Virus record (IMG/VR): IMGVR_UViG_3300030339_000075
Coordinates: 1 to 45,745 of that record
DNA: 45,745 nt
DNA from: a virus
Strand: one strand, 5' to 3'
Shown here piece by piece: positions 3,245 to 28,291 of the stretch. Every line of letters begins with the position of its first letter. Position 1 is the stretch's first letter. The notes under the pieces were generated by a model that was not told the DNA's origin, did no database searches, and saw only the letters and a list, made by a program, of their open reading frames with translations. The translations under genes and the position numbers were made by a program.

Positions 3245-3576
3245 ATAAAAATAGAATTCTTCTTTGGAAGATGTTCGATGGAAAATGTGCATATTGTGGT
3301 GGAAAGTTAGATAAACGATTTCATGCAGATCATATAGACCCCAAATATCGGGGAGGCAAGGACGCTAAAGAAAATCTATACCCCGCCTGTCCTCGATGTA
3401 ACATTAGAAAGGCTACTTATACTGTTGAAGAGTTTAGGCATGAAATTGACAAACAAGTTGATGTTTTAAGAAATAATTCGAGGCCATTTAGATTAGCAGA
3501 AGCATTTGGGCAGATTCGAGTAACCGGACAAGAAGTTGTATTTTGGTTTGAGAAATACATGGCAACAAAGGATTAA
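3241..3576 (+). CDS. HNH endonuclease (small, free-standing)
   Basis: A 111-residue HNH nuclease. It shows the standard zinc-binding version of the fold: CAYCG near residues 17-21, the catalytic core HADHIDP near 29-35, an Asn in KENLYPACPRC, and the second Cys pair CPRC. Such small HNH proteins nick or cut DNA; in phages they are packaging-associated nucleases, homing endonucleases or recombination nucleases. This one is between replication genes, far from any terminase seen, so homing or a general nuclease role is more likely (inference). It begins in an ATGA overlap with the preceding gene and ends one base before the polymerase ATG. Confidence 0.75.
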   Translation: MNKNRILLWKMFDGKCAYCGGKLDKRFHADHIDPKYRGGKDAKENLYPACPRCNIRKATYTVEEFRHEIDKQVDVLRNNSRPFRLAEAFGQIRVTGQEVVFWFEKYMATKD

Positions 3577-12545: not shown

Positions 12546-12712
12546 AACAAGAAGATTTGCTTAATAACAGCATAGAGATTCTGCTGTCTATTCCGATGGG
12601 TATGTCTGATGAAGACAAACGACAATACCTAAAGGATGCCCTGGAAATGTATGCCGAATATATATATCAATATGTTGCGTTTGAAACGAAAAATGGGGGG
12701 ATAAATGTCTGA
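12542..12712 (+). CDS. hypothetical protein (56 aa)
   Basis: A 56-residue reading frame starting in an ATGA overlap with the nuclease gene, preceded by AAGGAGAGGA. It is helical with acidic and Tyr-rich parts (SDEDKRQYLKDALEMYAEY). The end overlaps the glycosyltransferase start by 8 bases and carries the GGGGGG stretch that can serve as that gene's ribosome site. No family is recognised and there is no membrane segment. It links the recombination genes to the sugar locus in one transcription unit. Confidence 0.55.
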   Translation: MKQEDLLNNSIEILLSIPMGMSDEDKRQYLKDALEMYAEYIYQYVAFETKNGGINV

Positions 12713-14039
12713 TAAACTTTCAGTTTTAGTCTACGGGGACAGCGCGACCGTGGGGACTGGGTTCGCACAGGTAATGAAGAATCTTCTTAGGGTTCTCTAT
12801 GCCACAGGCAAGTACAATTTCACCTGTATCGGCATCAATCACGATGGCTCTCCCTACGACCAGCAGAAATACCCTTATGCCATCCACCCTGCCGTTTCCC
12901 CTCTGTCCATGAATAAGGTCTATGAGGATGTTTACGGCAGACAGAAATTCATCGACTTTGCCAGGACGGGTGATTTTGACTTGGTATTTATGCTTCAGGA
13001 CACCTTTATCGTGGAAACCTTCCTCCCCACACTACTTGAATGCCGTGATAAGTTGCCCAAGGAAAAGAAGTTCCCCATCATTTTCTATTTTCCTATTGAC
13101 GGTGAGCCTAAGAAGTCGTGGATTGAGAATGTGGTGGCTCTGGTGGATTTCCCTGTTGCCTATACGGAATTTGCCAAGAAAGAGTGCCTGAAGTACGTTC
13201 CCGGCCTTGATAAGATGCCTATCATCTATCATGGCGTGGATAAGGCCACCTTCTTTCCGCTCCCTAAAGAGACTGTAGCGGAATTCCGGAAAACCTTCTT
13301 TTCCAAGCACAAGGATAAGTTTATTGTACTGAACGTGAACCGAAACCAGCCTCGTAAGGATTTGCACCGCACGTTTGCCGCATTTGGCCTGTTTCACAAG
13401 GCTAACCCCGATACTTTCCTGTTTATCAATGCACAGGCTAATGATGTAGGCGGGAATATCGTCGAGATTGCAGAGCATTATGGACTGAAGTATGATGAGG
13501 ATTGGGCCTGCCCGAGTAGCGGATTTAATGCTAACCAGGGGTATCCTATCCAGATAGTGAACCAGCTCTATAATGCCTGCGATCTGGTTATTTCCACTAC
13601 TATTGGTGAGGGATTCGGGCTGAGTACCGTTGAAGCGATGGCTGTTAAGAAGCCTATCCTGTTCCCCAACAATACGGCTATTCCTGAGATTGTTGGGCAA
13701 AATGAAGAGTATGGTTATATGTGCAAGTCGGGTGAGACCATCAATGACTGGATGTGCCTCGGGATGCCTGATAATAATATCCTTCGCCCTGTGACTGACG
13801 TACTGGACATGGCGGAAAAATTACAGTACATTAAGGATCACTATGATGAGGCTAGGGCCAAGGCTGAACTGGCTTATGAGCGGGTTTGGACTTGGGAAGG
13901 TGTGGGGGAGCAATGGAAGGATGTATTTAACAAGGCGGATATTAAGAAGCAGATACTTAGAGGAGAGATTAAGCCTGAAGTGAATTCCGATTGCCCCTGT
14001 GGTAGCGGAATTAAATTCAAGAAGTGTTGCGGGAGGTAA
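12705..14039 (+). CDS. GT-B glycosyltransferase (GT4-like) with C-terminal SEC-C zinc motif
   Basis: A 444-residue glycosyltransferase. The N-terminal Rossmann half starts with LVYGDSATVGTGFAQ. The C-terminal half has the NRNQPRKDL loop and the GEGFGLSTVEAMAVKKPIL donor-binding segment with the E-x7-E pattern of retaining GT4 enzymes, then AIPEIVG. Unusually, the protein ends in CPCGSGIKFKKCCG (C430, C432, C441, C442), a SEC-C zinc-binding motif known from SecA tails and other proteins, where it mediates protein binding. The acceptor is unknown. It precedes rmlA and rmlB and so is likely to use a deoxysugar nucleotide made by this locus (inference). Codon composition is somewhat more GC-rich than in the recombination genes. 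Confidence 0.8.
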   Translation: MSDKLSVLVYGDSATVGTGFAQVMKNLLRVLYATGKYNFTCIGINHDGSPYDQQKYPYAIHPAVSPLSMNKVYEDVYGRQKFIDFARTGDFDLVFMLQDTFIVETFLPTLLECRDKLPKEKKFPIIFYFPIDGEPKKSWIENVVALVDFPVAYTEFAKKECLKYVPGLDKMPIIYHGVDKATFFPLPKETVAEFRKTFFSKHKDKFIVLNVNRNQPRKDLHRTFAAFGLFHKANPDTFLFINAQANDVGGNIVEIAEHYGLKYDEDWACPSSGFNANQGYPIQIVNQLYNACDLVISTTIGEGFGLSTVEAMAVKKPILFPNNTAIPEIVGQNEEYGYMCKSGETINDWMCLGMPDNNILRPVTDVLDMAEKLQYIKDHYDEARAKAELAYERVWTWEGVGEQWKDVFNKADIKKQILRGEIKPEVNSDCPCGSGIKFKKCCGR

Positions 14040-14042
14040 TTG

Positions 14043-14927
14043 ATGAAGGGGATTATTCTAGCTGGTGGCGCGGGAACTAGATTATTCCCCGTCACCCAAA
14101 TCGTCTGTAAGCAACTGTTGCCAGTATTTGATAAGCCGATGATTTATTACCCATTGTCAGTGCTTATGCTGGCGGGCATAAGCGAAGTGCTTATTATTTC
14201 CACGCCAGAATCGACTTCCTTATTTAGGAATCTTTTGGGGGATGGGCACCAGCTAGGAATGCGTATTGAATACAAAGTGCAGGATGTTCCTAACGGACTT
14301 GCGCAGGCTTTTGTTCTTGGCGAGGAATTTATAGGCAAAGATAGCGTATGCTTAGTTTTGGGCGACAACATCTTTCACGGGCAGGGACTCTCACGGCTAC
14401 TGAAAGCGGCAGTAGACCAGAAGGACGGCGCTACTATATTCGGATACTATGTCAACGAACCCGAGCGATATGGTGTGGCTGAGTTTAGTCCCTATGATGG
14501 GCGGGTGCTTTCTATTGAGGAAAAGCCCACCCATCCTAAATCCAATTATGCCGTTGTAGGGTTGTATTTTTATGACAACGATGTAATTTCGATTGCAAAA
14601 AACATCAAGCCATCTCCTCGCGGAGAGTACGAGATTACCGATGTCAACAATGAATACTTGCGGCTAAGGAAACTTTCTATGAAGCTGATGGGCCGGGGGT
14701 ATGCTTGGTTGGATACCGGGACGCATGATTCCCTGGCTGATGCAACATCCTATATCAAGACTATTCAAGATAGGCAGGGGCTAAAAGTGGCTTGTATCGA
14801 AGAAATCGCTTACAGCATGGGTTTTATCAATAAGGTGCAATTCCTTAAACTGGCGGAAGGACTCAAGAAATCCACATATGGGGATTACCTCTTTAGGATT
14901 GCGAATGATGGAGCACCCGTAATATGA
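14043..14927 (+). CDS. rmlA: glucose-1-phosphate thymidylyltransferase RmlA
   Basis: A 294-residue RmlA, which makes dTDP-glucose from dTTP and glucose 1-phosphate, the first step of dTDP-deoxysugar synthesis. Visible motifs are the nucleotide-binding [11 protein letters not shown] (residues about 7-17), [17 protein letters not shown], the metal-binding [33 protein letters not shown] and [11 protein letters not shown]. Length is normal (about 290). The ATG at 14043 follows GGGAGG. The end overlaps rmlB by 4 bases (ATGA). All motif positions needed for catalysis appear intact, so an active enzyme is expected. Confidence 0.92.
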
Positions 14928-15958
14928 ACAGGAAATTTTCTACAATACTTGTCACTGGTGGTGCTGGTTTTATTGGCACGAACTTCATTCACTATTTGTT
15001 TGGAAAAGCGGGGTTTGGGGGACGGGTAGTAAATCTGGATGCCCTTACCTATGCAGGCAATCCTGAAAATCTCGTGGATATTGAAAAGATGCATGGCGGC
15101 ACTCACTATTTTTTTGAAAAGGGGGATATTACCAATAGACAGACTATTGAAGCAGTTTTTGTAAAATATAAGCCCGATGCAGTCTTACATTTTGCGGCAG
15201 AGAGCCATGTGGATCGATCTATTCTTGGGCCGGAAGCCTTTATAAAAACTAATGTAATGGGAACCTACACCCTCCTTGATGTTGCTTACAAGGCATGGAA
15301 TGGAAGAAAGGATGTTCTTTTCCATCATGTAAGCACCGACGAGGTTTTTGGCTCATTGGGGGACTCTGGTTTTTTTACTGAGGATACACCCTACGATCCG
15401 CGCTCACCCTATTCTGCAAGCAAAGCGTCAAGTGACCATCTTATAAGAGCCTATTTTCACACTTATGGACTTCCAGTTACCCTTTCCAATTGTTCCAATA
15501 ATTATGGCCCTTACCAGTTCCCCGAGAAGCTTATCCCCCTTATGATCCTTAATATGGTTAAGGGGAAAAGCTTGCCTGTGTATGGTGATGGTAAGAATAT
15601 TCGGGATTGGATTTATGTAGAGGATCACAATGCGGCTGTGTGGGAAATCATGCAAAAGGGTGAAGCAGGACGAAGTTACAATATTGGGGGCGAGACTGAA
15701 TGGGAAAACCTTACATTACTTAATCGCCTAATTGAAATTGTAGCCGAGGAGACAGGTAAACCGATTGATTCGATTCGCTCTCTTATAAGGTATGTTAAGG
15801 ATAGGCCGGGACATGATAGGCGCTACGCTATTGATTGTTCTCGTATTAAGACTGAACTTGGTTGGAAGCAGAGTGTTACTTTTGATGAGGGACTTCGAGC
15901 AACGGTAAAATGGTATCTAAGTAATAGGGCTTGGATGGATAGTATAGGGAGTAAATAA
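14924..15958 (+). CDS. rmlB: dTDP-glucose 4,6-dehydratase RmlB
   Basis: A 344-residue extended short-chain dehydrogenase. The NAD-binding [11 protein letters not shown] lies at about residues 10-20, followed by [13 protein letters not shown], the [12 protein letters not shown] active-site strand with Thr-Asp-Glu, and the [11 protein letters not shown] box with catalytic Tyr and Lys. [19 protein letters not shown] and RDWIYVEDH are also typical of RmlB. It converts dTDP-glucose to dTDP-4-keto-6-deoxyglucose. Length is normal. It overlaps rmlA by 4 bases, and its stop overlaps the Rad50-like N-half ATG by one base (TAATG), so sugar and DNA-repair genes share a transcript. Confidence 0.92.
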
Positions 15959-17163
15959 TGCTACAAAAACTTGAGATAAGTAACTATCAAAGCCATAAGG
16001 ATTCTGTTTTCCTTTTCTACAAGGGAGTGAATGCCTTAACTGGTAGTTCTAATTCTGGAAAAAGTGCTGGATTACGTGCATTAGACTGGATTATCAACAG
16101 CAAGCCTGCTGGGGATGGTTTCGTAAGTTTTTGGTGTTGGAACGAAAAAGGCAAGCAGATTGCCCCCACTTCAGTAAAGCTCACCCTCGATAATGGCACA
16201 GTCATAGAGCGTGTACGGGATGCCGAACGAAATTGCTACATCATTAACGGTAAGCAACTGGATGCCCTTAATCGTTCCGTTCCCCCCGAGGTAGCCGAAG
16301 CCCTGAACTTCTCTGAAACTAACCTACAGAAACAGTTCGGGGCACCGTTCCTTCTTACTGACAGTGCCGGTGAAGTGGGTAAATTCTTCAACAAGATCGC
16401 CCATTTTGACGCCATAGACAAATATCAGTCCGCTATTGAATCCAAGCGCCGGTCTACTAATGCTGAACTAAAGCTAGTACGAGAGAACCTAGAACGTGTA
16501 GACGAGGATTTGAAGAAGTTTGACTGGATACCTATGGCACAGAAACTACTCAAGAAAATAGAAGAACTTGAGAAGAAAAACGGAGAAACCGAATTTATTG
16601 TGGGGGAATTGAAGGAATCCCTGGAATTATGGGAGCGGCAACAGAAGATATTAGAACAGACGGCTGTAATTGATAAGGCAGAGGAACTGTCTACAAACTG
16701 TCTACAGTTACAGCTAAGTGTGGACGATTTGAAACAGAAAATCACCAATATCTCTAATATGGGTGATACTTATGGGATAAATGAATCCATAGTAAAAAAG
16801 TATGAGTTCATTGAAGCGTCTGAACAACTGGTGTTTGGCATCAATCCATTATTGCATCAAAACGCAACTTTAGAGTCTAAAATTAGCTCTTTAGTGCAAT
16901 TTATCGCCGATTATAAGACGCAAAATGAACTGGTAAGTAATACTGATATGTTGCCTATGGCGGAAAAGTTGGTGAATAAGATCGGGATGTTGGGGGCGGA
17001 AAATAAGGGGCTGATGGATAAGATATTTTCCTTGACAAGTATTACCGATCAGTATAAAATCAATAAGAATATGGCGGATATGTCCGAACGGGAATGCGAG
17101 GAATTACAAGGTCAGTTGCCGAAGATGTGCCCGCTTTGTAATGCCCCATTGGAGGCAGTATGA
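15958..17163 (+). CDS. Rad50/SbcC-like ATPase, N-terminal half ending at the zinc hook
   Basis: A 401-residue protein with the N-terminal lobe of an SMC/Rad50-like ATPase: KLEISNYQSHKDSVF and a Walker A GSSNSGKS near residues 30-37. A Q-loop-type segment ETNLQKQFGAPFLL follows, then a long coiled-coil from about 155 to 385. It ends with MCPLCNAPL, a CxxC (C391, C394) that looks like the Rad50 zinc hook, seven residues before the stop. The signature motif and Walker B are absent and are found in the gene at 18847. Together the two would reconstitute a Rad50-like nucleotide-binding domain. The metallophosphoesterase partner is encoded between them. It overlaps the DUF551 gene by 4 bases. Confidence 0.75.
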   Translation: MLQKLEISNYQSHKDSVFLFYKGVNALTGSSNSGKSAGLRALDWIINSKPAGDGFVSFWCWNEKGKQIAPTSVKLTLDNGTVIERVRDAERNCYIINGKQLDALNRSVPPEVAEALNFSETNLQKQFGAPFLLTDSAGEVGKFFNKIAHFDAIDKYQSAIESKRRSTNAELKLVRENLERVDEDLKKFDWIPMAQKLLKKIEELEKKNGETEFIVGELKESLELWERQQKILEQTAVIDKAEELSTNCLQLQLSVDDLKQKITNISNMGDTYGINESIVKKYEFIEASEQLVFGINPLLHQNATLESKISSLVQFIADYKTQNELVSNTDMLPMAEKLVNKIGMLGAENKGLMDKIFSLTSITDQYKINKNMADMSERECEELQGQLPKMCPLCNAPLEAV

Positions 17164-17372
17164 ATGAATGGATTAGCATAAAAGATAAATGGCCTCGATT
17201 AGGTCAAAAGGTGTTATTGTACTCTAATGGTGTAGTACAGAACGAGATTTATTATCTGAATCAAGGTGATGAAGTGGGGTATTTTTGGGATCGTGATGAT
17301 CTTGATAACTCCCCTTTAGTGATTGAAGATGATTATTGGATGCCACTTCCTGCTCCCCCGAAGGTACTATGA
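17160..17372 (+). CDS. DUF551-type small protein (copy 1)
   Basis: A 70-residue protein with the DUF551 pattern: MNEWISIKDKWPRLGQKVLLY at the start and a WMPLPAPP end. The domain is common in phages and has no known function. Copy 2 lies at 18643-18846. The gene is joined to the Rad50-like N-half and to the Mre11-like gene by 4-base overlaps on both sides, so it is translated inside the nuclease module. The C-terminal WMPLPAPP is a useful identifier. Whether it contributes to the nuclease is unknown. Confidence 0.7.
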   Translation: MNEWISIKDKWPRLGQKVLLYSNGVVQNEIYYLNQGDEVGYFWDRDDLDNSPLVIEDDYWMPLPAPPKVL

Positions 17373-18253
17373 GTAAGTATATTTTATTCGGTGACGCACA
17401 TCTCAGGAACGACCGTCCCCTAGCCCGCCTAGACCTAGATTGGATGCAGACTCAAAGAGATGTTCTGTTCTTTATAGCCGATCTAGCCAATGCCCGACAT
17501 GCCAACATTATTGATACCGGGGATAACTTCAATACTCCCCGTGTCCCCGATGAGATTAAAAGCCTTTACCTTGAGTTTGTAGCCCGTTGTAATGGCATGG
17601 TTCATACTATCCCCGCCAATCATACCCTACCCTATCACCAAATGAAGAACATCAATGAATCTTCTATTGGTGTTCTGGCCTCAATAGCCAAACTTCACAC
17701 CCCCAATCTTGTGGTGCATATGTGTGATGAAGCGAATGAGGATGGGCGGTTCGAGCATTCCACCTATCTAACAGAGGATGTATTACTTTGCCATACTTTG
17801 ACATTTCCTTCAGAGGAAGAAATTCCTTTCTACGGCAAGGCTACTTCGGCACAACATCTTATGATGAAGTATAGAGATGCTAAGTGGATTCTACTTGGGG
17901 ATAATCACCATCATTTCTTAGTGAATGAGGATGATAGGTTTGTCATCAATCCTGGCACCCCAATTCCCCAAGTAGCGGATATGCTTGACTATGAGCCGGG
18001 GGTGTATTATATTGATACTGAAGCCGAGGATGTTGAATGGATTCTGGTTCCGTTTGACAGGTCTATGCTTACTAATGACCATATCACTGAACAGCATGAG
18101 CGGGATGAGCGGATAGCGGCTTTTATGGAGGCTATACCGAAAGACGGAAAAGTAAGTCTGTCATTTGAAGACAATTTTGCCAAGGCTGTAGAAAGTAGTG
18201 GGTTGGATCAAAATGCACTCAATTTTATAGAGGAGATAAAGAATGGAGAATAA
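17369..18253 (+). CDS. Mre11/SbcD-like metallophosphoesterase nuclease
   Basis: A 294-residue calcineurin-fold phosphoesterase. Metal-binding motifs in order are FGDAHL (D-x-H, about residues 6-11), DTGDNF (about 54-59), PANHTLPYH (about 83-91, in place of GNHD), LCHTL (about 138-142) and LGDNHHHF (about 178-185, in place of GHxH). It lies between two genes that encode halves of a Rad50-like ATPase, so it is most likely the nuclease subunit of a phage SbcCD/Mre11-Rad50 (T4 gp47/gp46-like) complex that processes DNA ends. The ATG at 17369 overlaps the DUF551 stop as ATGA; an earlier in-frame start at 17336 would overlap more and is less likely. Confidence 0.75.
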   Translation: MSKYILFGDAHLRNDRPLARLDLDWMQTQRDVLFFIADLANARHANIIDTGDNFNTPRVPDEIKSLYLEFVARCNGMVHTIPANHTLPYHQMKNINESSIGVLASIAKLHTPNLVVHMCDEANEDGRFEHSTYLTEDVLLCHTLTFPSEEEIPFYGKATSAQHLMMKYRDAKWILLGDNHHHFLVNEDDRFVINPGTPIPQVADMLDYEPGVYYIDTEAEDVEWILVPFDRSMLTNDHITEQHERDERIAAFMEAIPKDGKVSLSFEDNFAKAVESSGLDQNALNFIEEIKNGE

Positions 18254-18404
18254 CCAGATTCCTGTCAAGAAACCTGATCCTGTTGCTGTAGTGGTAGGTT
18301 TGTTTATGTGGGGGTTTCTTGCTATTGCAGGACTTTTTGCAACGGGCAGTGCGGCTTTACTGGCTATCAAATGGTTTGTATCCTTGATTAAGGGGGGACT
18401 TTAA
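18243..18404 (+). CDS. small single-pass membrane protein (53 aa)
   Basis: A 53-residue reading frame starting 11 bases before the end of the Mre11-like gene, with GAGGAGATAAAG upstream as ribosome site. Residues about 13-45 are hydrophobic (segments VAVVVGLFMWGFLAIAGLF and GSAALLAIKWFVSLI), forming one or two membrane helices, with a short charged N-terminus. The stop overlaps the next ATG by one base. No family is recognised. A membrane peptide inside a DNA nuclease operon is unexpected. Confidence 0.5.
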   Translation: MENNQIPVKKPDPVAVVVGLFMWGFLAIAGLFATGSAALLAIKWFVSLIKGGL

Positions 18405-18646
18405 TGGATACCCAAGAGTTTGAGCAAATCAAGAAGAAGATTGACATTCTCAAGGAGAAGCGGGCTAAAGCTAATGGGGCTATCGAGAATATCCTAGATA
18501 CCTGGAAAAAGCAGTATAGCATCAATTCCATTGAAGAGGCACAGGAACAGCTTGAGGTGTTGCAGAGTGAGTATGATGCTAGTAACGTCAAGATAGACGG
18601 GTGGTATGATGAGTTGAAGGGGCTGACGAATTGGGCCGCTATATGA
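18404..18646 (+). CDS. coiled-coil protein in the Rad50/Mre11 module (80 aa)
   Basis: An 80-residue protein that is almost wholly predicted coiled-coil, rich in Lys, Glu, Ile and Gln (EQIKKKIDILKEKRAKANG, EEAQEQLEVLQSEYDA). There are no Cys residues. It is encoded between the Mre11-like gene and the C-half of the Rad50-like ATPase. The N-half carries a coil of about 230 residues, but the C-half has only about 60, so this protein could supply part of the missing returning coil strand; this is inference. It may equally be an independent small coil protein. It overlaps neighbours by 1 and 4 bases. Confidence 0.55.
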   Translation: MDTQEFEQIKKKIDILKEKRAKANGAIENILDTWKKQYSINSIEEAQEQLEVLQSEYDASNVKIDGWYDELKGLTNWAAI

Positions 18647-18846
18647 ACGATTGGATAAGTGTAAAAGATAAATTGCCGGAAGCAGGAGAGATTGTGCTCA
18701 TTGCCACATCAGATTGGGTAATATTGGGTAAATACAAACCAAGATGGGGCGATGGAAGTGACGACATTTTTTCTGATGACGGCGATTGTGGATTATATGG
18801 GCAACCGTCTCATTGGATGCCTTTACCTATTTCTCCGAAGGCATAA
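18643..18846 (+). CDS. DUF551-type small protein (copy 2)
   Basis: A 67-residue DUF551-like protein beginning MNDWISVKDKLPEAGEIVL and ending HWMPLPISPK. It is a clear paralogue of the protein at 17160-17372, sharing the start and end boxes but differing in the middle. The ATG at 18643 overlaps the coiled-coil stop as ATGA. Its stop is followed immediately by the ATG of the Rad50-like C-half. The function of the domain is not known. Confidence 0.7.
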   Translation: MNDWISVKDKLPEAGEIVLIATSDWVILGKYKPRWGDGSDDIFSDDGDCGLYGQPSHWMPLPISPKA

Positions 18847-19464
18847 ATGTTAAACTATAAATCCCTCCTAGACCAATCCATAGGCAGACGGGATGCCCTA
18901 CAATCTCAAAAGGACGCCTATCTCAAGAAAATAGACTATCTCATCGAGCGCCAAAAGACCATTGAAATTGTACAGGCATTGGTGCAGAAAGTAGCCAAGG
19001 AAACCCAGGAACAACTCAAATTCCAGATAGAGGACATTGTAAAGACCTGTATTGATACCTGTTTCCCTGATGAGTATGATTTCAAGGTGGAGTTTGAGAT
19101 TAAGCGTGGTAAGACTGAGTGCGCCTTGAAGTTCTACAAGAATGGGCATGAGATTGATGATTTGCTTGAGTCGGGGGGTGGAGGCGTGGTTGACCTCGCT
19201 TCTCTGGGGCTTAGGGTGGCTTCATGGGCTTTAAGTAACACCGCCAATACTCTTGTACTAGATGAACCTTGTAAAAATTTGAGCCGTAACTTACAGGATA
19301 GGGCTGGTGAAATCTTATTTGAACTTAGTACAAAATTAGGAATTCAAATTATAATGAGTACACATATACCGGAACTTGTGGAACAGAGCGGTAGAGTGTT
19401 TGATGTGAAGTTACAGAAAGAGGGAAAGTGGGAAGTGTCAAAAGTCACAGTAATGGAGGAATAA
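18847..19464 (+). CDS. Rad50/SbcC-like ATPase, C-terminal half
   Basis: A 205-residue protein carrying the C-lobe of an SMC/Rad50-like ATPase. It starts with a coil of about 60 residues, then a beta-rich part (YDFKVEFEIKRGKTECALKF), the ABC signature ESGGGGVVDLASLG (108-121), Walker B TLVLDEP (135-141) and the H-loop MSTH (His173). It has no Walker A, which is in the gene at 15958. The two polypeptides would need to associate to form ATP sites. The Walker B glutamate is present, so activity is plausible. It starts directly after the DUF551 stop, and its own stop is followed directly by the next ATG. Confidence 0.78.
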   Translation: MLNYKSLLDQSIGRRDALQSQKDAYLKKIDYLIERQKTIEIVQALVQKVAKETQEQLKFQIEDIVKTCIDTCFPDEYDFKVEFEIKRGKTECALKFYKNGHEIDDLLESGGGGVVDLASLGLRVASWALSNTANTLVLDEPCKNLSRNLQDRAGEILFELSTKLGIQIIMSTHIPELVEQSGRVFDVKLQKEGKWEVSKVTVMEE

Positions 19465-19650
19465 ATGAAATTACATTTTCATAAACATGTCACTGTGTAT
19501 AGACAAGGGGGGTTTTGTTTTTGGCCCATACCTACTATTAGGATTTTTTGCATACCTGATTATTTTCAGATCGATTTTAGTTGGTTATTTTTTACATACC
19601 ATATTAATTCTGTGATTCATTGGAAGGATGCAAAGGGAGAAGGACGATAA
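19465..19650 (+). CDS. hypothetical aromatic-rich protein (61 aa)
   Basis: A 61-residue protein with many aromatic residues (GGFCFWPIPTIRIFCIPDYF, SWLFFTYHI) and a basic end. It might associate with a membrane, but no clean transmembrane helix is evident because Pro and charged residues interrupt it. It is packed without gaps between the Rad50-like C-half and rmlC and preceded by ATGGAGGAATAA, which provides a ribosome site. No family is recognised. It is retained because it exactly fills the space between neighbours. Confidence 0.45.
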   Translation: MKLHFHKHVTVYRQGGFCFWPIPTIRIFCIPDYFQIDFSWLFFTYHINSVIHWKDAKGEGR

Positions 19651-20166
19651 ATGGATAAAATAGCACTTCGTATCCCTGGTGTATGGGTACAGGAAATAGA
19701 TAAGTTTGATGATGAGCGGGGAATTTTTGCCCCTATAATAACTAACGAAACAGATTTCCCCATTAAGGAAACATATGTATCCAATACCCATGAAGGCTTC
19801 TTACGAGGGCTACATTTCCAAATGCCCCCCTATGCCCAAAATAAGATAGTATGTTGTGTAGAGGGGCTTGTAGAGGACATCATTGTTGATCTTCGTAAAA
19901 GTTCCCCTACTTATGGGGAAGTTATGACTTTTTTCTTGGATGGGGGTTGTTCCTACATAGCCCATATCCCTGATGGATGTGCTCATGGATACTACGCTTA
20001 TAAGGATAGCACAATCATTTACTTTATGGATGAGGAGTTTCATCCCGAGCTTTATGGAGGAATTAAGTGGGATTCTTGTCTGATAGCATTGCCTAGTGGA
20101 GTACAGACTTCTGCCAAGGATGCAAAGCTACCCCGATTCTGCGATTTTGAGACGCCATTTATTTAG
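19651..20166 (+). CDS. rmlC: dTDP-4-dehydrorhamnose 3,5-epimerase RmlC-like
   Basis: A 171-residue cupin of the RmlC family. The diagnostic segments are DERGIFAP near residue 20, SNTHEGFLRGLHFQ with the catalytic His, and ILVDLR-like EDIIVDLRKSSPTYG. A tyrosine and aspartate region follows: IPDGCAHGYYAYKDSTIIYFMDE. It would epimerise C3 and C5 of dTDP-4-keto-6-deoxyglucose to the L-rhamnose precursor, or C3/C5 of a related 4-keto sugar. Length is near the family norm (about 180). It resumes the sugar pathway after the nuclease module. The stop is followed by TTAGGAGGAAGCT, a strong ribosome site for the next gene. Confidence 0.85.
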   Translation: MDKIALRIPGVWVQEIDKFDDERGIFAPIITNETDFPIKETYVSNTHEGFLRGLHFQMPPYAQNKIVCCVEGLVEDIIVDLRKSSPTYGEVMTFFLDGGCSYIAHIPDGCAHGYYAYKDSTIIYFMDEEFHPELYGGIKWDSCLIALPSGVQTSAKDAKLPRFCDFETPFI

Positions 20167-20175
20167 GAGGAAGCT

Positions 20176-21429
20176 ATGAGGAACATTCAAGTAACTGGAA
20201 TGGATTTAACGGATGTTGATAAGCTGACTATGATCCAGGCCATTACTAATGGAGAAGTTAGCTATGGCAAGTACAATAAATTTGCAGAAAGAGCCTTAGC
20301 TGTATACGAGGAGCAGGATTATGCCTTCCTTGTAAACTCTGGTTCCTCAGCCAATCTCTTAGCATTTATGGCGTTTACTTCCCCTTTGATGCATGATAAA
20401 TGGAGAATTCAACCAGGGGACGAGATAATTACAGTGGCTACTGCGTTCCCTACTACCATTACCCCTATCATTCTTGCTGGATGTGTTCCGGTGTTTATAG
20501 ATATTAATGAATGGTATAACATTGATGTGGGTATGCTTGAAAAGGCGTATAGCCCTAAGACAAAGGGTGTATTTATTGCACATACTCTAGGTATCCCTTA
20601 TGATATTGATGCCGTGCAAGAATTCTGTACTAAACACGGCCTATTCCTTATCAGTGATTGCTGTGATGCTTTGGGTTCCCTTTATAAAGATGTCAAAGTA
20701 ACAAATAAAAAATATGCAGATGTAGTGACAAATTCCTTTTACCCTGCTCACCATATTACCGCAGGGGAGGGTGGGGCCGTTCTTACCTCTGACCCCCTTA
20801 TTGCTAAGATAGTGCAGTCCCTACTGGGTTGGGGCAAGGCATGTTTTTGTGACCCCGGAACTGATAATAAATGTGGGCGTCGTTTTGACGGGCAATTTGG
20901 TACTCTTTCTGAAGGATATGATCATAAATATGTGTATTCCCATTTAGGATTTAACCTTAAAATGGCTAGTCCACAAGCGGCTTTGCTATACTCCCAATTA
21001 AAGCGTATTGACGAGTACACCGATAGGCGCATTCGTAATTTTGATACATTGCATGAAGAGTTGCACCCCTGGGCATTCCCTTATAGATTGTATGACGGAG
21101 TATACACTGATTATGAGGCATATCCTAATTCTGGTACAATTCCTTCTTGGTTTGGATACCCCATTACGTTACCCAAACATGTAGATCGCAAGAAACTGAT
21201 AGTGAAATTAAATTCTCTAGGAGTTGCTACCAGACTTCTGTTCTCTGGAAATATCTTGAGACAACCAGCATGGCAACCAGAATATAAATATCGAATTGTG
21301 GGGAACTTGGATATGTCAAATTACATTACAGAGCATATGTTTTGGATAGGCTGTTGGCATGGTCTTACCGAAGAGGATGTTCTATATGAACGTGAAGTGG
21401 TAAAACAAGCAATTATGGATGCTCTATGA
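20176..21429 (+). CDS. rfbH: RfbH/E1-type PMP- and [2Fe-2S]-dependent sugar 3-dehydratase
   Basis: A 417-residue DegT/DnrJ-fold enzyme of the RfbH (CDP-4-keto-6-deoxyglucose-3-dehydrase, E1) type. The PLP-binding lysine is replaced by His in SFYPAHHITAGEGGAV (first His at 192), as in E1, so it should use PMP for C3 deoxygenation instead of transamination. The [2Fe-2S] cysteines are present as C163...C223-x-C225-x7-C233; spacing after C163 is 59 residues against 57 recalled for E1. YDHKYVYSHLGFNLK, RLLFSGN and FWIGCWHGLT also match. It would make a 3,6-dideoxyhexose precursor. RmlA/RmlB nearby imply a dTDP substrate, as in SpnQ-type enzymes. No reductase partner gene is seen. Confidence 0.85.
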   Translation: MRNIQVTGMDLTDVDKLTMIQAITNGEVSYGKYNKFAERALAVYEEQDYAFLVNSGSSANLLAFMAFTSPLMHDKWRIQPGDEIITVATAFPTTITPIILAGCVPVFIDINEWYNIDVGMLEKAYSPKTKGVFIAHTLGIPYDIDAVQEFCTKHGLFLISDCCDALGSLYKDVKVTNKKYADVVTNSFYPAHHITAGEGGAVLTSDPLIAKIVQSLLGWGKACFCDPGTDNKCGRRFDGQFGTLSEGYDHKYVYSHLGFNLKMASPQAALLYSQLKRIDEYTDRRIRNFDTLHEELHPWAFPYRLYDGVYTDYEAYPNSGTIPSWFGYPITLPKHVDRKKLIVKLNSLGVATRLLFSGNILRQPAWQPEYKYRIVGNLDMSNYITEHMFWIGCWHGLTEEDVLYEREVVKQAIMDAL

Positions 21430-22163
21430 AATTGCTTCTTATAGGAGGTTCTGGGTTACTTGGTACTGAGGTACGCAAACAACTAAAGGCATTAGAATCT
21501 GTTATTTCTGTGGATTCACCGTCTCATAAAGAACTAGATGTATGCAACATTAAAACCATTATTCCTTATGTTCAGAAAAGATATGATAAAATTGTATGTT
21601 TAGTAGGGGAAAAGAATCAAACGGTCATTGAGCTAGATAGTTACCATGCGCTTAGAACTAACATTCAAGGAATAGGAAATGTTGTGGAGGCATTGCAAAT
21701 AAACGACTCCCCATCTCAATTAGTATATATTTCAACCGGGTATGTTTATAAAGGGAACACACGGTATCATAAAGAGGATGACGGAATATACCCATGTTCC
21801 AAATATGCGTGGAGTAAATTAGGAGGGGAATGTGCTGTTCGTATGTTGGATGAAAAACAGCATTTGATTATTAGATGTGAATTCTCTAAACAACCCTGGC
21901 ACCGGGATTGGGCCTATACCGATCAGTATACATCTAGGGAAGAAATTACTGTAACTACCAATAAAATATTGTCCCTTATTATGTTGAATGCTTATGGAAC
22001 ATATAATATAGGAGGAAAGCGGCAAAGCATTTGGAAGTACGCGCAATCTATTAGTAATAAGCCCATCCTCAAAGACACACGTAAAAGTAGTAAGCTTATT
22101 ACCTTTCCACGGGATACGTCTCTTTGCACTAAAAAATATAACAAATTAAGGAGGGGGCAATGA
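21426..22163 (+). CDS. RmlD-like NAD(P)-dependent sugar reductase
   Basis: A 245-residue short-chain dehydrogenase. The cofactor loop is LIGGSGLLGTEVRK at the N-terminus, the active-site strand is LVYISTGYVYKGNTRYH, and the YAWSKLGGE box has Tyr-x3-Lys. The layout follows RmlD (dTDP-4-dehydrorhamnose reductase), which reduces the C4 keto group. It is shorter than typical RmlD (about 290), and the C-terminal substrate part ends differently, so it may act on the 3-deoxy product of the preceding enzyme rather than make L-rhamnose (inference). It overlaps the neighbouring genes by 4 bases on both sides. Confidence 0.75.
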   Translation: MKLLLIGGSGLLGTEVRKQLKALESVISVDSPSHKELDVCNIKTIIPYVQKRYDKIVCLVGEKNQTVIELDSYHALRTNIQGIGNVVEALQINDSPSQLVYISTGYVYKGNTRYHKEDDGIYPCSKYAWSKLGGECAVRMLDEKQHLIIRCEFSKQPWHRDWAYTDQYTSREEITVTTNKILSLIMLNAYGTYNIGGKRQSIWKYAQSISNKPILKDTRKSSKLITFPRDTSLCTKKYNKLRRGQ

Positions 22164-22948
22164 TATATGATTGTTTTACTTTTTTTAAGGAATTCGATTT
22201 ACTAGAAATAAGACTGCATGAACTTAAAGATGTGGTGGATTATTTTGTACTGGTAGAGGCAGATCGAACCCATTCCAATCTCCCTAAACCGTACTATTAT
22301 GAAGAGAATAAGGAACGCTTTAAGGAATTTGAGAAGAAAATTATCCATATAAAAGTGCCTAATGCAGAACGATGGTTTAACCCCAATGATGAGATGGCTA
22401 TTGATATTGCTACTAGAAATGTCATTGCTACTGCTATTCCCTATCAACCGGACGATCTGATTATCATTAATGACTCCGATCAGATTATTCGCGCTTCTGT
22501 TTTGAAAGATTTTGTATACACAGGGCCTAAGAAATTCGAGCTTTCATATTACTATTATTACTTTAATTGTAAGCATACTGTAGCTAAATGGTATGGCGCT
22601 ACTATATGGAAATATAGTGACATTAAAAAATCAATAGCTACATTGCGATTTGACGCCCCACAACCAGATGAGATAATCCCTAATGCTGGGTGGCACTTTT
22701 CTTATCTAGGAGGTAAAGAAGCTATACGAAGTAAACTTGAATCTTTAGCACATTCCCCTTGGATTAACAAACCAGAATATAGAACAGATGAACACCTTGA
22801 TAAAATCATGAATGAGGGACTGGATATCATTCTTCGCACCAGTGAAGGACCTATGGAATTTGTACCTATTGATAATACATATCCACAATATATTCTTGAT
22901 AATAAAGATAAGTTTAAGATGCACATTAAGGAGGTTTGGTATGAATAA
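22160..22948 (+). CDS. GT17-like glycosyltransferase
   Basis: A 262-residue enzyme resembling glycosyltransferase family 17 (beta-1,4-N-acetylglucosaminyltransferase-like). Recognisable parts are MIYDCFTFFKEFDLLEIRLHEL at the start split by family-typical spacing, DYFVLVEADRTHSN, ARNV-like RNVIATAI, and the DxD-like motif IINDSDQI near residue 110. NAGWHFSYLGG is also typical. Family members are GT-A enzymes; bacterial and viral ones occur in surface-polysaccharide loci. The acceptor is unknown. It overlaps the RmlD-like gene by 4 bases and the next transferase by 8 bases. Confidence 0.75.
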   Translation: MIYDCFTFFKEFDLLEIRLHELKDVVDYFVLVEADRTHSNLPKPYYYEENKERFKEFEKKIIHIKVPNAERWFNPNDEMAIDIATRNVIATAIPYQPDDLIIINDSDQIIRASVLKDFVYTGPKKFELSYYYYYFNCKHTVAKWYGATIWKYSDIKKSIATLRFDAPQPDEIIPNAGWHFSYLGGKEAIRSKLESLAHSPWINKPEYRTDEHLDKIMNEGLDIILRTSEGPMEFVPIDNTYPQYILDNKDKFKMHIKEVWYE

Positions 22949-23633
22949 AATTTGCTACATTCCCCTACGTGAGGACGAGGATTTACTCAAAAATGCCATT
23001 GTGGATTTATATGATCAGGTTGATTTTTTTAGAGTCATCAATAGTACAGGAAGGGATTTGCTCCCCTATTTGGCAGATATAGATGTTGGACACAAAATCA
23101 CCTTCATTAACCCTATTACACCATTGTGCTTTGAACAAGCTTTGAATGCGGCTATCAAAGATAGTTGGTATGGCCTTAATAACCAAGACTTTATTCTATG
23201 GGCGCATAATGATATCAGGGTGCAACCGGGCGCTGTAGATGCGCTTATGCGTAGGTATGAAGAGATAAAGGGCAATAAATGGGGAGTTGTCTACAGTAAG
23301 TATGATGTGTTGTGCCTTATAAATCCTCATTTCTTTGTGGATGAGAACATTTGGGGTGATCCCGCACTATTCCCTAACTATTTTGGGGATAATCATCGTT
23401 ACAGGATAATGGATTTACGGGGGTATACACGGTTTGAATGCCCTGAATCTGCCCCTTTAGTTACCCATATTGGCAGCCAAACTATTACCCGCCATCCTTA
23501 TTATGGGATGATAAATGGGCTGACTTTCGATTATGAGGGGCAACTGTATAGAAAAATATGGGGTGGGGGGCCGGGAGAGGAACGAAATACTGATCCTACT
23601 GTTGGAGGATTGTACCCATTGAGGAGTGTATAA
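22941..23633 (+). CDS. GT-A-like glycosyltransferase
   Basis: A 230-residue protein with features of a small GT-A transferase: an N-terminal beta-alpha pattern, ALNAAIKDS, then FILWAHNDIRVQPGAVDALM in the position of the nucleotide-sugar metal-binding DxD (here N-D). Further on there are LINPHFFVDENIWGD and GPGEERNTDP. The ATG at 22941 follows TAAGGAGG; an in-frame extension to 22812 would overlap the GT17-like gene heavily and is rejected. The substrate and acceptor are not known. It is the third transferase of the locus, so up to three sugars or steps could be involved. Confidence 0.6.
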   Translation: MNKICYIPLREDEDLLKNAIVDLYDQVDFFRVINSTGRDLLPYLADIDVGHKITFINPITPLCFEQALNAAIKDSWYGLNNQDFILWAHNDIRVQPGAVDALMRRYEEIKGNKWGVVYSKYDVLCLINPHFFVDENIWGDPALFPNYFGDNHRYRIMDLRGYTRFECPESAPLVTHIGSQTITRHPYYGMINGLTFDYEGQLYRKIWGGGPGEERNTDPTVGGLYPLRSV

Positions 23634-23634
23634 T

Positions 23635-24201
23635 ATGGACAAATACGGCGAAGTGGAAAGCAAACTAATCGAATCCTATGAAATGTACGGCGACTTTACA
23701 GAGTTCGCCGCCATCCTTCGTGAGTCCTTACCCCAGGCCGAGGCGAGCGGGGAGCTGGACGAAGCATGGCGTCACTACCACTACGAGCCCTTTGTAGGCG
23801 ATCCGCTAAATCCCGACGATAAGGAGCGAGTACGCCGCCACGGCGAGGCGTGTAAGAAGGCGTTTCGGGCCGGATTCCTCGCCGCCCGACCCGCGCCGAG
23901 CGGGGGGCTGGGCGTTCCGCCTTGTCCATTCACCGAGAAAACACCGCTAGACGGCAAGAAATGGTGCACTATCGAAGGACATTGCATGGATTGCCATTGG
24001 GGAGCGCATGAGCCTTTTGAAGCCGCCCGCCCCGCGCCGACCGCAGAGAAGAGGCTCAGGGAGGCGCTAAACAGAATAGAGGATCTAGCGGAAGATGTCT
24101 CACCAAATTCTACATTACCTAGTGACAAAGCCTATCTGTATTGTGCTCATCTGGCGCATGACGCCCTCCTCGCCCACGAAGCGCCGAAGGAAGGGGTATA
24201 A
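23635..24201 (+). CDS. hypothetical protein with GC-rich AARPAP repeats
   Basis: A 188-residue protein of unknown function. It contains RAGFLAARPAPSGG and, 47 residues later, FEAARPAPTAEK; the DNA under these (23881-23900 and 24022-24040) is nearly identical and very GC-rich compared with the AT-rich surroundings. Between the two are Cys/His-rich segments (PPCPFTEKT, CTIEGHCMDCHWGAH) that may bind zinc. The start may be ATG 23635 or GTG 23626. The rest is acidic and helical. The composition and the internal repeats suggest recent insertion or expansion. The stop overlaps the next ATG by one base. Confidence 0.6.
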   Translation: MDKYGEVESKLIESYEMYGDFTEFAAILRESLPQAEASGELDEAWRHYHYEPFVGDPLNPDDKERVRRHGEACKKAFRAGFLAARPAPSGGLGVPPCPFTEKTPLDGKKWCTIEGHCMDCHWGAHEPFEAARPAPTAEKRLREALNRIEDLAEDVSPNSTLPSDKAYLYCAHLAHDALLAHEAPKEGV

Positions 24202-24701: not shown

Positions 24702-24765
24702 TTGCACCCTTCCTGCCTTACCTGATCTTTACGATTGGCATGAGGTAGCGAAGGGTGCAATTTTT
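24702..24765 (+). terminator. hairpin terminator between the convergent arms
   Basis: TTGCACCCTTC at 24702-24712 pairs perfectly with GAAGGGTGCAA at 24750-24760, followed by TTTTT at 24761-24765. An inner TACCT/AGGTA pair (24719-24723, 24743-24747) can stack in the loop. It ends the plus-strand arm; the stem could also stall minus-strand transcription, although its T-run on that side is poor. Confidence 0.75.
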
Positions 24766-25279
24766 ACCACCAATGCAGAACTTTATTGCCTACAAGATAT
24801 CCGCCTAAACCTACAGCAATACCACCAAACACATAGGTAGTGTTACGGTAAAGATTTAATGAGAGTTTTAATTTGCTCAAGTCCTTCGCTGACTCCTTGT
24901 AGAGTCGTTCCTGTTCCGCTAAGTCCTTCCGAGATTGTTCCAAGTCCTGTTTGGATAGCGCCAAATCTATTTCTAGCTTCTTCAAGTTGTCGTTGATGTT
25001 CTGTATTTCCATCTCGGATTTGCTGTTCGAGTCGGCCAGTTCCTTTTTGTAGTTCTCCAACTGTACCTGATAATCTTGTATTTGTTTCGATAAGTCGGAA
25101 ATTTGCTTGTTGTATCCCTGTATTGAGAATTGTTCCTGCGACAATATTAGCTGATAATTCGTCAATTTTTCGATTATTTGATCCTTGGATGACTGCGAAT
25201 ACAATGATGGCACCAAGAATAAGGCTAACACCACCGACAATAATATACCATTTAATCTTCTTCCATAGTTCTTGCACAT
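24764..25279 (-). CDS. coiled-coil membrane protein with signal-like N-terminus (frame A of an overlapping pair)
   Basis: A 171-residue protein starting ATG at 25279. The first 29 residues look like a signal peptide or anchor (basic start, then LLSVVLALFLVPSLY). Residues about 33-145 are a Lys/Glu/Gln-rich coiled-coil, and the end TYVFGGIAVGLGGYLVGNK is a membrane segment. It shares its ribosome site AAGGAG with a second frame that starts two bases downstream (GTG at 25277) and lies entirely inside it. Neighbours are a holin-like gene upstream. A spanin-like lysis role is possible, but no lipobox Cys is present. No family is recognised. Confidence 0.6.
   Translation of the reverse strand: MCKNYGRRLNGILLSVVLALFLVPSLYSQSSKDQIIEKLTNYQLILSQEQFSIQGYNKQISDLSKQIQDYQVQLENYKKELADSNSKSEMEIQNINDNLKKLEIDLALSKQDLEQSRKDLAEQERLYKESAKDLSKLKLSLNLYRNTTYVFGGIAVGLGGYLVGNKVLHWW
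24843..25277 (-). CDS. embedded N-anchored coiled-coil protein, i-spanin-like (frame B of the pair)
   Basis: A 144-residue frame starting GTG at 25277, overlapping the ATG of the 171-residue protein (ATGTG). It has a short amphipathic start, one strong transmembrane helix (YIIVGGVSLILGAIIVF, about 11-27) and a long hydrophilic helical domain (segments EQQIRDGNTEHQRQLEEARN and EGLEQIKTLIKSLP). This N-anchor plus periplasmic coil layout is like an inner-membrane spanin. Either frame could be an artefact, but both have membrane and coil features and a suitable distance to the same ribosome site. Lambda Rz/Rz1 is a known precedent for nested spanins. Confidence 0.55.
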   Translation of the reverse strand: MQELWKKIKWYIIVGGVSLILGAIIVFAVIQGSNNRKIDELSANIVAGTILNTGIQQANFRLIETNTRLSGTVGELQKGTGRLEQQIRDGNTEHQRQLEEARNRFGAIQTGLGTISEGLSGTGTTLQGVSEGLEQIKTLIKSLP

Positions 25280-25288
25280 TTACACTCC

Positions 25289-25573
25289 TTATGATTCGTA
25301 ATGGATATCAGATGATGGAATGGATTTAGGCTGAAAGCCTTCAACTAAACCAAGCCCAAGTAAAGCCGCTCCTGCTGTAAGCACCCCGTCTGCTGCTCCA
25401 AGTGCCAAAGAAAGCCTTGTAGCTGCTTCTGCTACAGGTATGAGGGAAGTTAGAGCTAAGAGAGCAAAGGCCAGCTTCATAGCCAACCCTAGCATCATAG
25501 AGATAGAGCCCCAAAGACGTTTAGAACTGTTATCCCCATTAGCATCTTTAAAAAAGCCTATAGGTTCAGACAT
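25289..25573 (-). CDS. holin-like membrane protein
   Basis: A 94-residue protein with a charged N-terminus containing KDANGDNSSKRLWG, followed by two hydrophobic segments (ISMMLGLAMKLAFALLALTS, about residues 24-43, and DGVLTAGAALLGLGLVE, about 62-78) and a polar tail. The FF-x-D-x-NGD-x-SSKRL-x-G start is seen on small phage membrane proteins often annotated as holins. Size and two-helix topology fit a holin, and the gene precedes the spanin-like pair by 9 bases. An AAGGAGG site precedes the ATG. Holin function is inferred from topology and location only. Confidence 0.55.
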   Translation of the reverse strand: MSEPIGFFKDANGDNSSKRLWGSISMMLGLAMKLAFALLALTSLIPVAEAATRLSLALGAADGVLTAGAALLGLGLVEGFQPKSIPSSDIHYES

Positions 25574-25582
25574 ATAACCTCC

Positions 25583-26569
25583 TTAACAACCATTCCTTAA
25601 TTTTGCATATTCCAAAGCATCCTCAAGGCAAGGATAGGGAATAAATCGGTGCTGTTGCGTATCCAATACTATAGCACCGTCCTTACTGGACGAAAAATAA
25701 GAAAACCACCGTTTAGCATACCCATCATTTGTCTTTAAGCTGCCTATTACCATAAATAACTGAAACACGCCTCGTTCAAAGGTGTACTCATATGCGGCAT
25801 CGTGGATGTGCCCTGCAATATAAATGTCTGCATCAGGGATATCCCTGCGAGCAAGTTGTTTCAATCCATGTGTTTTATTAAAACTTGAATTGTACCGTGT
25901 GGTATGTGTGGACACAATCTTATACTTTTGGTCATTAAGTTGGAGGCTACACACACCAATGCCATTAAAATAGACAATATTTCGATTGAGTATATTTTTT
26001 ACTGCACTACGAGCAGATACCTTTTCCTCAAATTCTTGTGTATGATTGCCCCAGCCGGAAAACAAAATCTTATCTTTAATCTCCATTAACCATGATAAAA
26101 GAAACTCATCCTGTTCTTCGGGAGAGATAATCTGAGAAAGCATAGGAAGTTGATTCTTAAAAGAGATAAAATTATCTGTTTCATCTCCTGTCAGGCTAAT
26201 GTACAAATAGGGAATGGTTTTAATAGCGTCTGTTAATTCTATCAAACGTCCATAATCAGTTCCAATGTTTCCGATGTGACTGTCCCCTAATGGTTTATAC
26301 ACAAGACACGGAAACTCTGTCTTAATCGTAATACTAGCAGAATCTTGTGACCAGGACGCCTTTTCGTGGAGACGTTGTCGTTCCTGCATATTAGGAACCC
26401 ATTCTCTCCAATTAAATATCCCGATCTTTTTGTCCGCCATTTTATTAGCGTATTGCATATAGCGTTTAAGGGTTTTTCTTTGCAAATTCAAATCTGCACA
26501 AGCCTTATCCTCTCCGTACTGTTCTATGTATTTTATGACTTCCGCTGTTCTTTCTTTTCCTGCTGGCAT
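25583..26569 (-). CDS. metallophosphoesterase with N-terminal helix-turn-helix
   Basis: A 328-residue protein. Residues about 1-45 look like a helix-turn-helix (TAEVIKYIEQYGEDKACADL...LKRYM). The rest is a calcineurin-like phosphoesterase with all metal motifs: LGDSHIGN (about 94-101), TGDETDN, GNHTQEF, VSTHTTRYN and AGHIHDA. Such HTH-phosphoesterase fusions occur in phages next to late genes; their substrate is not known to me. It could be a DNA nuclease or a nucleotide phosphodiesterase. It is preceded by a promoter-like sequence at 26598-26627 and a GGAGAT site, so it heads the transcript that runs into the lysis genes. Confidence 0.75.
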   Translation of the reverse strand: MPAGKERTAEVIKYIEQYGEDKACADLNLQRKTLKRYMQYANKMADKKIGIFNWREWVPNMQERQRLHEKASWSQDSASITIKTEFPCLVYKPLGDSHIGNIGTDYGRLIELTDAIKTIPYLYISLTGDETDNFISFKNQLPMLSQIISPEEQDEFLLSWLMEIKDKILFSGWGNHTQEFEEKVSARSAVKNILNRNIVYFNGIGVCSLQLNDQKYKIVSTHTTRYNSSFNKTHGLKQLARRDIPDADIYIAGHIHDAAYEYTFERGVFQLFMVIGSLKTNDGYAKRWFSYFSSSKDGAIVLDTQQHRFIPYPCLEDALEYAKLRNGC

Positions 26570-27061: not shown

Positions 27062-28291
27062 CTAAGCGTATACGCCAAGATTAAGAACATTCAATAAGTT
27101 GTATGCGCCAAGCAAGACAGTGCCACTAATATCATACGCCCCTAGATAAAGTTGATTGCTCTCAATGATAGAGATGGAATCGCCGGCAATGGCTGATTCT
27201 ATAACAAAAACATAATACTCAACACTCCCTACAACGTAGTCCTGAGCGTTTGCGGCCTCTATTACTATGCACTCGCCGGGGCCTGCATATGTTTCGCTTA
27301 TTATGTCTAGCGCAATTAAATCTTCTATTATTTCGACGCTATTGTTTGTGGTTTCGCTTATTATGTCTAGCGCAATTAAATCTTCTATTATTTCGACGCT
27401 ATTGTTTGTGGTTTCGCTTATGGTCTCAGTAGCAGATGCGGCCTCGGAGATGGCCACGGTTGTTCCCGCGCCGTCATCAAAGTCTAAGCCCTGGTAAAGC
27501 GTGCCCGATGTGGTTAAATTGCGCCCGTTCCCCGAACGATCCGTAAGCACAGCGGCCCCGGCGTCCCAATTGAGCGGATAGTCACCCCACATCGTAGCGT
27601 CGGGGCTGAAATTGAGCGCCATCGCATTGATGTCGCTGATCGACGGCTCAGTAGCTAGTGACTTTATCTTCGCGTCGATCACGTTCCCGTCGTTTGTCCC
27701 GTCGCCCGATGTCGTTTGCCCAATTTGGAAAAACGCCAACGAATCGGGAGTCCACGCATTAGCCGCCGCCTGAGTCCAGCCTGCATTAGCTACTAGATCG
27801 GCTCGAAGCTGTGTAAATGTCTTAGTATCGTCTCCTGTTTTAATCGGAGTCCCAGCAAGCCCAAACTTAAGCCACTGGCGCATAATGATGCGAGAGTTGG
27901 CTGCGTCTAAAATTAGTTGGCACGCACAATATTTCCATCCAGTACACTCAGCCTCGGTTAACGCTTTGTCGGACTCGTACCAGTCGTAGTCGGCTATGTA
28001 GTCGGACCCACCTAACTCCGCGTTGGCGTAGGCTGACGCATTAGCGTTGTAATAGATTTGCGAATGATCTTGGGTTATATTAAGGTTATCTATGATCCAT
28101 TTAACGGACCAATTGCCCCCCCCGGTAGCAAACGTCGTAAAATTAACGTGATAGATTGGGTAGGTTCCAATATCGATATTTGCTTTAGCCCATACTCCAA
28201 ACAATACAGCGTTTCCGGGCACAGATGATCGTTGAGGGTAGTCCAGAGTCCATGCGCCGGCGTTTATTTTTATCGATGGTTTTATTGCCAT
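27062..28291 (-). CDS. LamG-like adsorption or tail-fibre protein with tandem repeat
   Basis: A 409-residue protein. The first 250 residues fit a concanavalin/LamG-type lectin domain (VLFGVWAKANIDIGTYPIYH, MNALN-like INAMALNFSP, WDAGAAVLTDRSGNGRNLT). Residues about 285-335 consist of repeats of ISETTNNSVEIIEDLIALDI, encoded by a perfect 60-bp tandem duplication. The C-terminal end has short GAYDISGTVLLGAYNLL repeats. Such proteins usually bind surface glycans. It is likely a receptor-binding or fibre component; no enzymatic motif is seen. DNA here is richer in CpG than the tape-measure gene. Confidence 0.6.
   Translation of the reverse strand: MAIKPSIKINAGAWTLDYPQRSSVPGNAVLFGVWAKANIDIGTYPIYHVNFTTFATGGGNWSVKWIIDNLNITQDHSQIYYNANASAYANAELGGSDYIADYDWYESDKALTEAECTGWKYCACQLILDAANSRIIMRQWLKFGLAGTPIKTGDDTKTFTQLRADLVANAGWTQAAANAWTPDSLAFFQIGQTTSGDGTNDGNVIDAKIKSLATEPSISDINAMALNFSPDATMWGDYPLNWDAGAAVLTDRSGNGRNLTTSGTLYQGLDFDDGAGTTVAISEAASATETISETTNNSVEIIEDLIALDIISETTNNSVEIIEDLIALDIISETYAGPGECIVIEAANAQDYVVGSVEYYVFVIESAIAGDSISIIESNQLYLGAYDISGTVLLGAYNLLNVLNLGVYA
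27291..27420. repeat. perfect 60-bp direct tandem duplication
   Basis: Bases 27301-27360 and 27361-27420 are identical over all 60 positions, and the ten bases before (27291-27300) match the unit's end. It is in frame and adds 20 residues per copy to the lectin-like protein. Copy number could vary by slippage or recombination. Confidence 0.95.

Follow-up and report, generated by a model that had tools for sequence, protein, structure and literature searches.

Two overlapping frames behind one ribosome site

The window, which is the whole stretch of 45,745 bases analysed here, is an IMG/VR phage record that is probably incomplete. It encodes a DnaB-type helicase, a DNA polymerase, a UvsX-like recombinase, a tape measure protein, a major head protein and a head protease. 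On its minus strand, the succession of TAAGGAG (25291-25285), TGTAA and ATGTG (25279-25275) places two overlapping start codons behind a single Shine-Dalgarno (SD) sequence. The ATG opens a frame of 171 codons (frame A) and the GTG a frame of 144 codons (frame B) that lies wholly within A. These two frames had been reported in the original prediction and match the sequence and its open reading frames (ORFs). The prediction had also judged both starts to be suitably spaced from AAGGAG, and the gap is 5 nt to the ATG and 7 nt to the GTG. The remaining same-strand frame over the pair contains 15 stops. The features of the locus are as follows.

25583-26569, minus strand: calcineurin-like phosphoesterase (PF00149 and phrog_7339), a neighbour outside the pair that serves as synteny marker
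25289-25573, minus strand: small membrane protein (94 aa, two hydrophobic stretches) located upstream of the pair, where a holin might be expected
25285-25291, minus strand: SD sequence TAAGGAG, one for both starts; its TAA also ends the holin-like ORF that precedes the pair
24764-25279, minus strand: frame A (ATG), 171 aa; signal peptide, coiled-coil helix and C-terminal hydrophobic tail; o-spanin-like partner with counterparts in three other loci (L100, L012 and L124)
24843-25277, minus strand: frame B (GTG), 144 aa; N-terminal membrane helix and coiled coil; i-spanin-like, wholly within A at an offset of +2 nt, with counterparts in L100, L012 and L124
25196-25279, minus strand: signal peptide of A, with cleavage predicted from the sequence by the general cleavage rule at PSLYS/QSS (slash, cleavage site)
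25185-25256, minus strand: N-terminal membrane helix of B, on the same bases as the signal peptide of A; Kyte-Doolittle 19-residue maximum 2.94
24767-24841, minus strand: hydrophobic, glycine-rich C-terminal tail of A, TTYVFGGIAVGLGGYLVGNKVLHWW, beginning directly after the stop codon of B

The 94-aa ORF has no family match, and its position and anatomy suggest that it is a holin.

Relatives of the pair

Direct searches were uninformative. Scans of viral contigs with single proteins (A, B, the holin-like product and the phosphoesterase) gave no matches, and a tblastn search of 50,697 phages with A and B gave no homologue (one chance-level match, E 0.8). No matches were obtained by tblastn of L012 B and L100 A, and genome-contig scans returned no useful relative. 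Relatives were reached instead via neighbouring genes, with 80 contigs collected by the major head protein. One of these, G015 (IMGVR_UViG_3300022555_000043), has a head protein 67% identical to that of the window and a phosphoesterase 58-60% identical; both it and G024 have replication and head genes in common with the window.

In L100, the corresponding locus of G015, the phosphoesterase gene is followed by a GIY-YIG/NUMOD3 homing endonuclease gene (L100:7336-8268, minus strand), a holin-like ORF and then AAGGAGAAGAAAGATTGTG. The TTGTG in this sequence opens a TTG frame of 173 codons and a GTG frame of 143 codons, which match the window pair in their +2 offset and in anatomy. This pair was located by synteny and not by a search for open frames. 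Its similarity to the window pair is weak (two-sequence E about 0.002-0.003), the A proteins being ~25% identical and the B proteins likewise, and similarity is weak among all four pairs. In L012, an ATGTG opens frames of 299 and 279 codons just upstream of a phosphoesterase that is 68% identical over a 148-residue part; the phosphoesterase homologue at L012:4465-6468 carries a large, intein-like in-frame insertion between WGNH and SEFEERV. In L124, which belongs to G024, the starts are adjacent (ATGAATG) with B first, and B has 121 codons and A 148.

Two scans covered 183 loci (1.8 Mb). One looked behind SDs for paired starts whose products both have a hydrophobic N-terminus, and the other for overlaps of 210 nt or more between different frames of one strand, with a hydrophobic tail at the C-terminus. 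Together they returned only the pairs of the window, L100, L012 and L124. Frame A is +1 relative to B in each of the four, and no pair of the opposite phase was found in the 183 loci. A different arrangement is found in L004 (IMGVR_UViG_3300017991_000193), where the phosphoesterase is 48% identical and a holin-like protein (weak phrog_1350 match) at the same place is followed by ordinary overlapped TM-coil and signal-coil genes in +1 frame. The phosphoesterase relatives L002 and L005-L011 have other genes downstream, the phosphoesterase of L102 adjoins an integrase with no pair there, and the closest head-gene relatives (G010-G014 and G030) are fragments without the phosphoesterase region. The integrases of L012 and L102 presumably resemble spirochaete ones; no host is proposed on this account.

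Chance versus dual coding

The original prediction held that a stop-free frame of 144 codons with a membrane helix would seldom arise by chance, and permutation of synonymous codons agrees. With protein A fixed, frame B was open over its 144 codons in 0.015% of 20,000 trials, and with protein B fixed, frame A was open in 0.005%. When codons were drawn from the usage of the record, the other frame was open in 0 of 20,000 trials whichever protein was fixed. Hydrophobicity and heptads carry over partly between the frames, as seen in mean values with the other protein fixed. Nevertheless, with protein A kept, the N-terminal hydrophobicity of B (P=0.0024) and its heptad strength (P=0.0074) lie above the level of a by-product. 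Permutation P values with A kept and with B kept were 0.018 and 0.022 for L100, 8e-4 and 5e-4 for L012, and 0.0027 and 0.042 for L124; those of L012 and L124 are post-selection because both loci were found by searching for open pairs. Among the pairs there are several cases in which the features of a frame go beyond those dictated by the other.

Another explanation is that only one frame is a gene and the other stays open by chance over an unusual length, its membrane helix and heptads being by-products of the frame shift. The partial carry-over of heptad and hydrophobic patterns would fit this explanation, as would the L100 test with A kept, which is weak by itself, and the case for translation of both frames is built from sequence. 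It is nonetheless very improbable. The open frames defy permutation, the features of each frame in several cases surpass those that the other would produce, and in four phages both frames persist in the same phase, with starts that overlap or adjoin each other behind an SD. Frame B is not a chance companion of A, or A of B, because the arrangement recurs in three other phages whose sequences are very different. Homologues in which stops break one frame, which the original prediction had named as evidence against itself, were looked for and not encountered: in L100 both frames are open over 143 codons at ~25% protein identity, and L012 and L124 are likewise paired. The sequence comparisons thus strongly support dual coding, and the earlier proposal of two real proteins from one ribosome site gains support from the pairs of the same anatomy in L100, L012 and L124.

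Anatomy of the two proteins

The two products have the parts that were first described for them, namely a signal-like N-terminus, a coil and a C-terminal hydrophobic segment in A, and an N-terminal membrane helix and a coil in B. All four A proteins begin with a hydrophobic signal ending in A or S before Q (PSLYS/QSS, PAYS/QQS, LLSA/QSL and SVFA/QDT), followed by a coil and then by a hydrophobic tail encoded around or after the stop codon of B. All four B proteins have the N-terminal membrane helix and coil that characterize an i-spanin. The predicted periplasmic lengths, with ends set by eye, are matched within each pair (118/113, 121/113, 240/243 and 104/94 residues). All eight proteins have more heptad power than their composition shuffles (P=0.019 at the weakest). 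Pfam coiled-coil matches for A and B were disregarded as compositional. AlphaFold2 models, made from four-row alignments and thus weak evidence beyond helicity, show A as one long helix (5-170, mean pLDDT 77) and B as helices 2-120 and 126-141 (mean pLDDT 73).

At the DNA level, self-identity tends to rise at lags of 21, 42 and 63 nt, most clearly in L012, which contains 21-nt tandem units. This periodicity suggests that coiled coils tolerate dual coding because heptads in one frame make heptads in the other more likely.

Neither window protein has a lipobox, as had been noted from the start; the only cysteine of A is at position 2. The A proteins of L012 and L124 also lack a lipobox, and that of L100 has LVGC, a possible lipobox, within its hydrophobic region. 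The A proteins of the window, L100 and L012 end in an aromatic residue (W, F and Y), and basic residues precede the tail. A C-terminal aromatic residue is common to many outer-membrane proteins, and these features are possibly relevant to insertion in that membrane.

Initiation at the overlapping start codons

Kohl et al. (PMC9841429) showed, in vitro and with in vivo reporters, that AUGUG sites in Escherichia coli start both frames at aligned distances of 12/14, where AUG is ahead of GUG about 3.5-fold (in vitro) to 10-fold (in vivo); other spacings give mostly one frame. The window resembles this system in having AUGUG behind a strong SD, and the distance counted by hand from the start of the SD is 12 nt to the ATG and 14 nt to the GTG. 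By the same count, L012 is at about 13/15 and L124, with two ATGs, at 12/16. L100 is at 15/17 with the weaker TTG first, which is longer than the ambiguous optimum in E. coli. The 12/14 spacing supports co-initiation in the window, as judged by an E. coli reference that may differ from the anti-SD of the phage host. The published work concerned reporters and native E. coli start sites, whereas in the window both frames are long proteins in an architecture kept across phages.

Lysis context and comparison with spanins

Ahead of the pair of L012 lie a muramidase endolysin (PF11860, 168.9 bits), a small membrane protein and an ORF of 95 aa, which puts the pair in a lysis cassette. In the window, a holin-like ORF is present and no recognised endolysin was found beside the pair or elsewhere in the 45,745 bases; nor did the 45.7 kb yield any candidate lipoprotein that might belong to a further spanin. 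Membership of the window pair in known spanin families was not detected, as PF03245 (Rz family) scores A at 20.9 bits, below its cut-off of 25.4 and as coils do, and PHROG Rz-like spanins match at E 0.04-0.05 only. A spanin-like role is supported by context, namely the muramidase neighbourhood of L012 and the overlapped pair of L004 at the same place.

The likeness to nested Rz/Rz1 spanins drawn in the original prediction holds in part. As in the embedded two-component spanins (lambda Rz/Rz1; PMC6139136), a membrane-anchored coil protein and an exported partner are encoded by the same DNA in +1 frame, and a lysis-gene neighbourhood is likewise seen in one relative (L012). Overlapped or embedded genes in different frames of one strand are two of the three known spanin layouts, and A is +1 to B in all four pairs. 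However, the o-spanin starts inside the i-spanin, at 0.4-0.5 of its length, in about 70% of embedded spanins (Kongari et al.; PMC6139136), whereas the nesting is inverted here, with the i-type gene inside its longer partner in the window, L100 and L012, and both genes starting within 2-4 nt. The pair is therefore not a canonical spanin. An o-spanin is an outer-membrane lipoprotein with a lipobox, while A has a C-terminal hydrophobic tail instead. Because the lipobox is absent, the window pair is not classed as a two-component spanin, and it may still work like one.

Frame A also resembles the unimolecular spanin T1 gp11 in that an export signal at the N-terminus is followed by a periplasmic coil and by a hydrophobic segment at the C-terminus. 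It differs in lacking the N-terminal lipobox that accompanies the C-terminal TMD of that class and in having a second membrane protein read from the other frame. The L004 pair shares with the window its place after the phosphoesterase and holin-like genes and its order of TM-coil then signal-coil in +1 frame, but its overlap is only 107 nt, the starts are separate and the C-terminal half of the partner differs. Membrane protein pairs encoded by overlapping genes are already known, and so is the ambiguous AUGUG start. No description of their combination, with a joint start, an i-type gene nested in its partner, length-matched coils and no lipid anchor, was found in the literature searched.

A proposed lysis pair and its alternatives

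The window pair is rather probably a spanin-like lysis pair expressed by ambiguous AUGUG initiation. Translation from the one ribosome site would begin at the AUG, producing A, or two bases later at the GUG, producing B, in a set ratio. B would sit in the inner membrane as a type II protein and extend a coiled coil into the periplasm, like an i-spanin. A would be exported, cleaved by signal peptidase I and left with a periplasmic coil nearly as long as that of B and its hydrophobic tail. After the action of holin and endolysin, the two coils would pair across the periplasm and the outer membrane would be disrupted or fused to the inner membrane, with the tail of A as far anchor or fusion segment in place of lipid. 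In-frame length changes would alter both coils together because both are read from the same bases.

If both frames are translated, the products could also regulate lysis, as an antiholin or lysis inhibitor, or form a membrane-anchored scaffold that acts on the host envelope. With no lipid anchor on either window protein, both could sit in the inner membrane, and a place beside holin-like genes suits regulators too. Two long periplasmic coils of matched length are more spanin-like, however, as is the overlapped pair at the same locus of L004, and a regulator or scaffold is unlikely. The lysis regulators known to us are short. A role outside lysis, in superinfection exclusion or envelope remodelling, appears less likely again: function is assigned here from anatomy and context, and the window pair has no recognised endolysin next to it, but there is a muramidase near the L012 pair and, again, a spanin-like pair in L004.

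If the spanin-like reading is correct, lysis by a pair that lacks a lipid anchor may account for some of the phages for which searches find no spanin, and gene-calling programs averse to overlap would miss one of the two genes. The pairs may even represent a class of outer-membrane-disrupting proteins free of lipid anchors, with 21-base-periodic DNA, two length-matched coils and a single ambiguous start, the same bases setting stoichiometry and coil length; this broader proposal is tentative, at slightly less than an even chance. To our knowledge, two long genes that share one start and overlap almost completely on the same strand are rare in bacteria and phages. Four diverged cases in the same frame phase offer a natural system for the study of joint selection on two frames and for asking how ambiguous AUGUG initiation sets a protein ratio.

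Other genes of the window

Elsewhere in the window, HNH and AP2/HNH homing-endonuclease-like genes (3241-3576 and 6190-6945, plus strand) flank the DNA polymerase gene. A run of sugar-nucleotide/glycosyltransferase-type genes (12705-22948, plus strand), including an epimerase, an aminotransferase and a dTDP-sugar isomerase, is interspersed with nuclease-like genes. A Pro/Ala-rich ORF of odd composition (23626-24201, plus strand) has no family match, and a fibre-like protein (27062-28291, minus strand) carries the tandem repeat SETTNNSVEIIEDLIALDI near its C-terminus.
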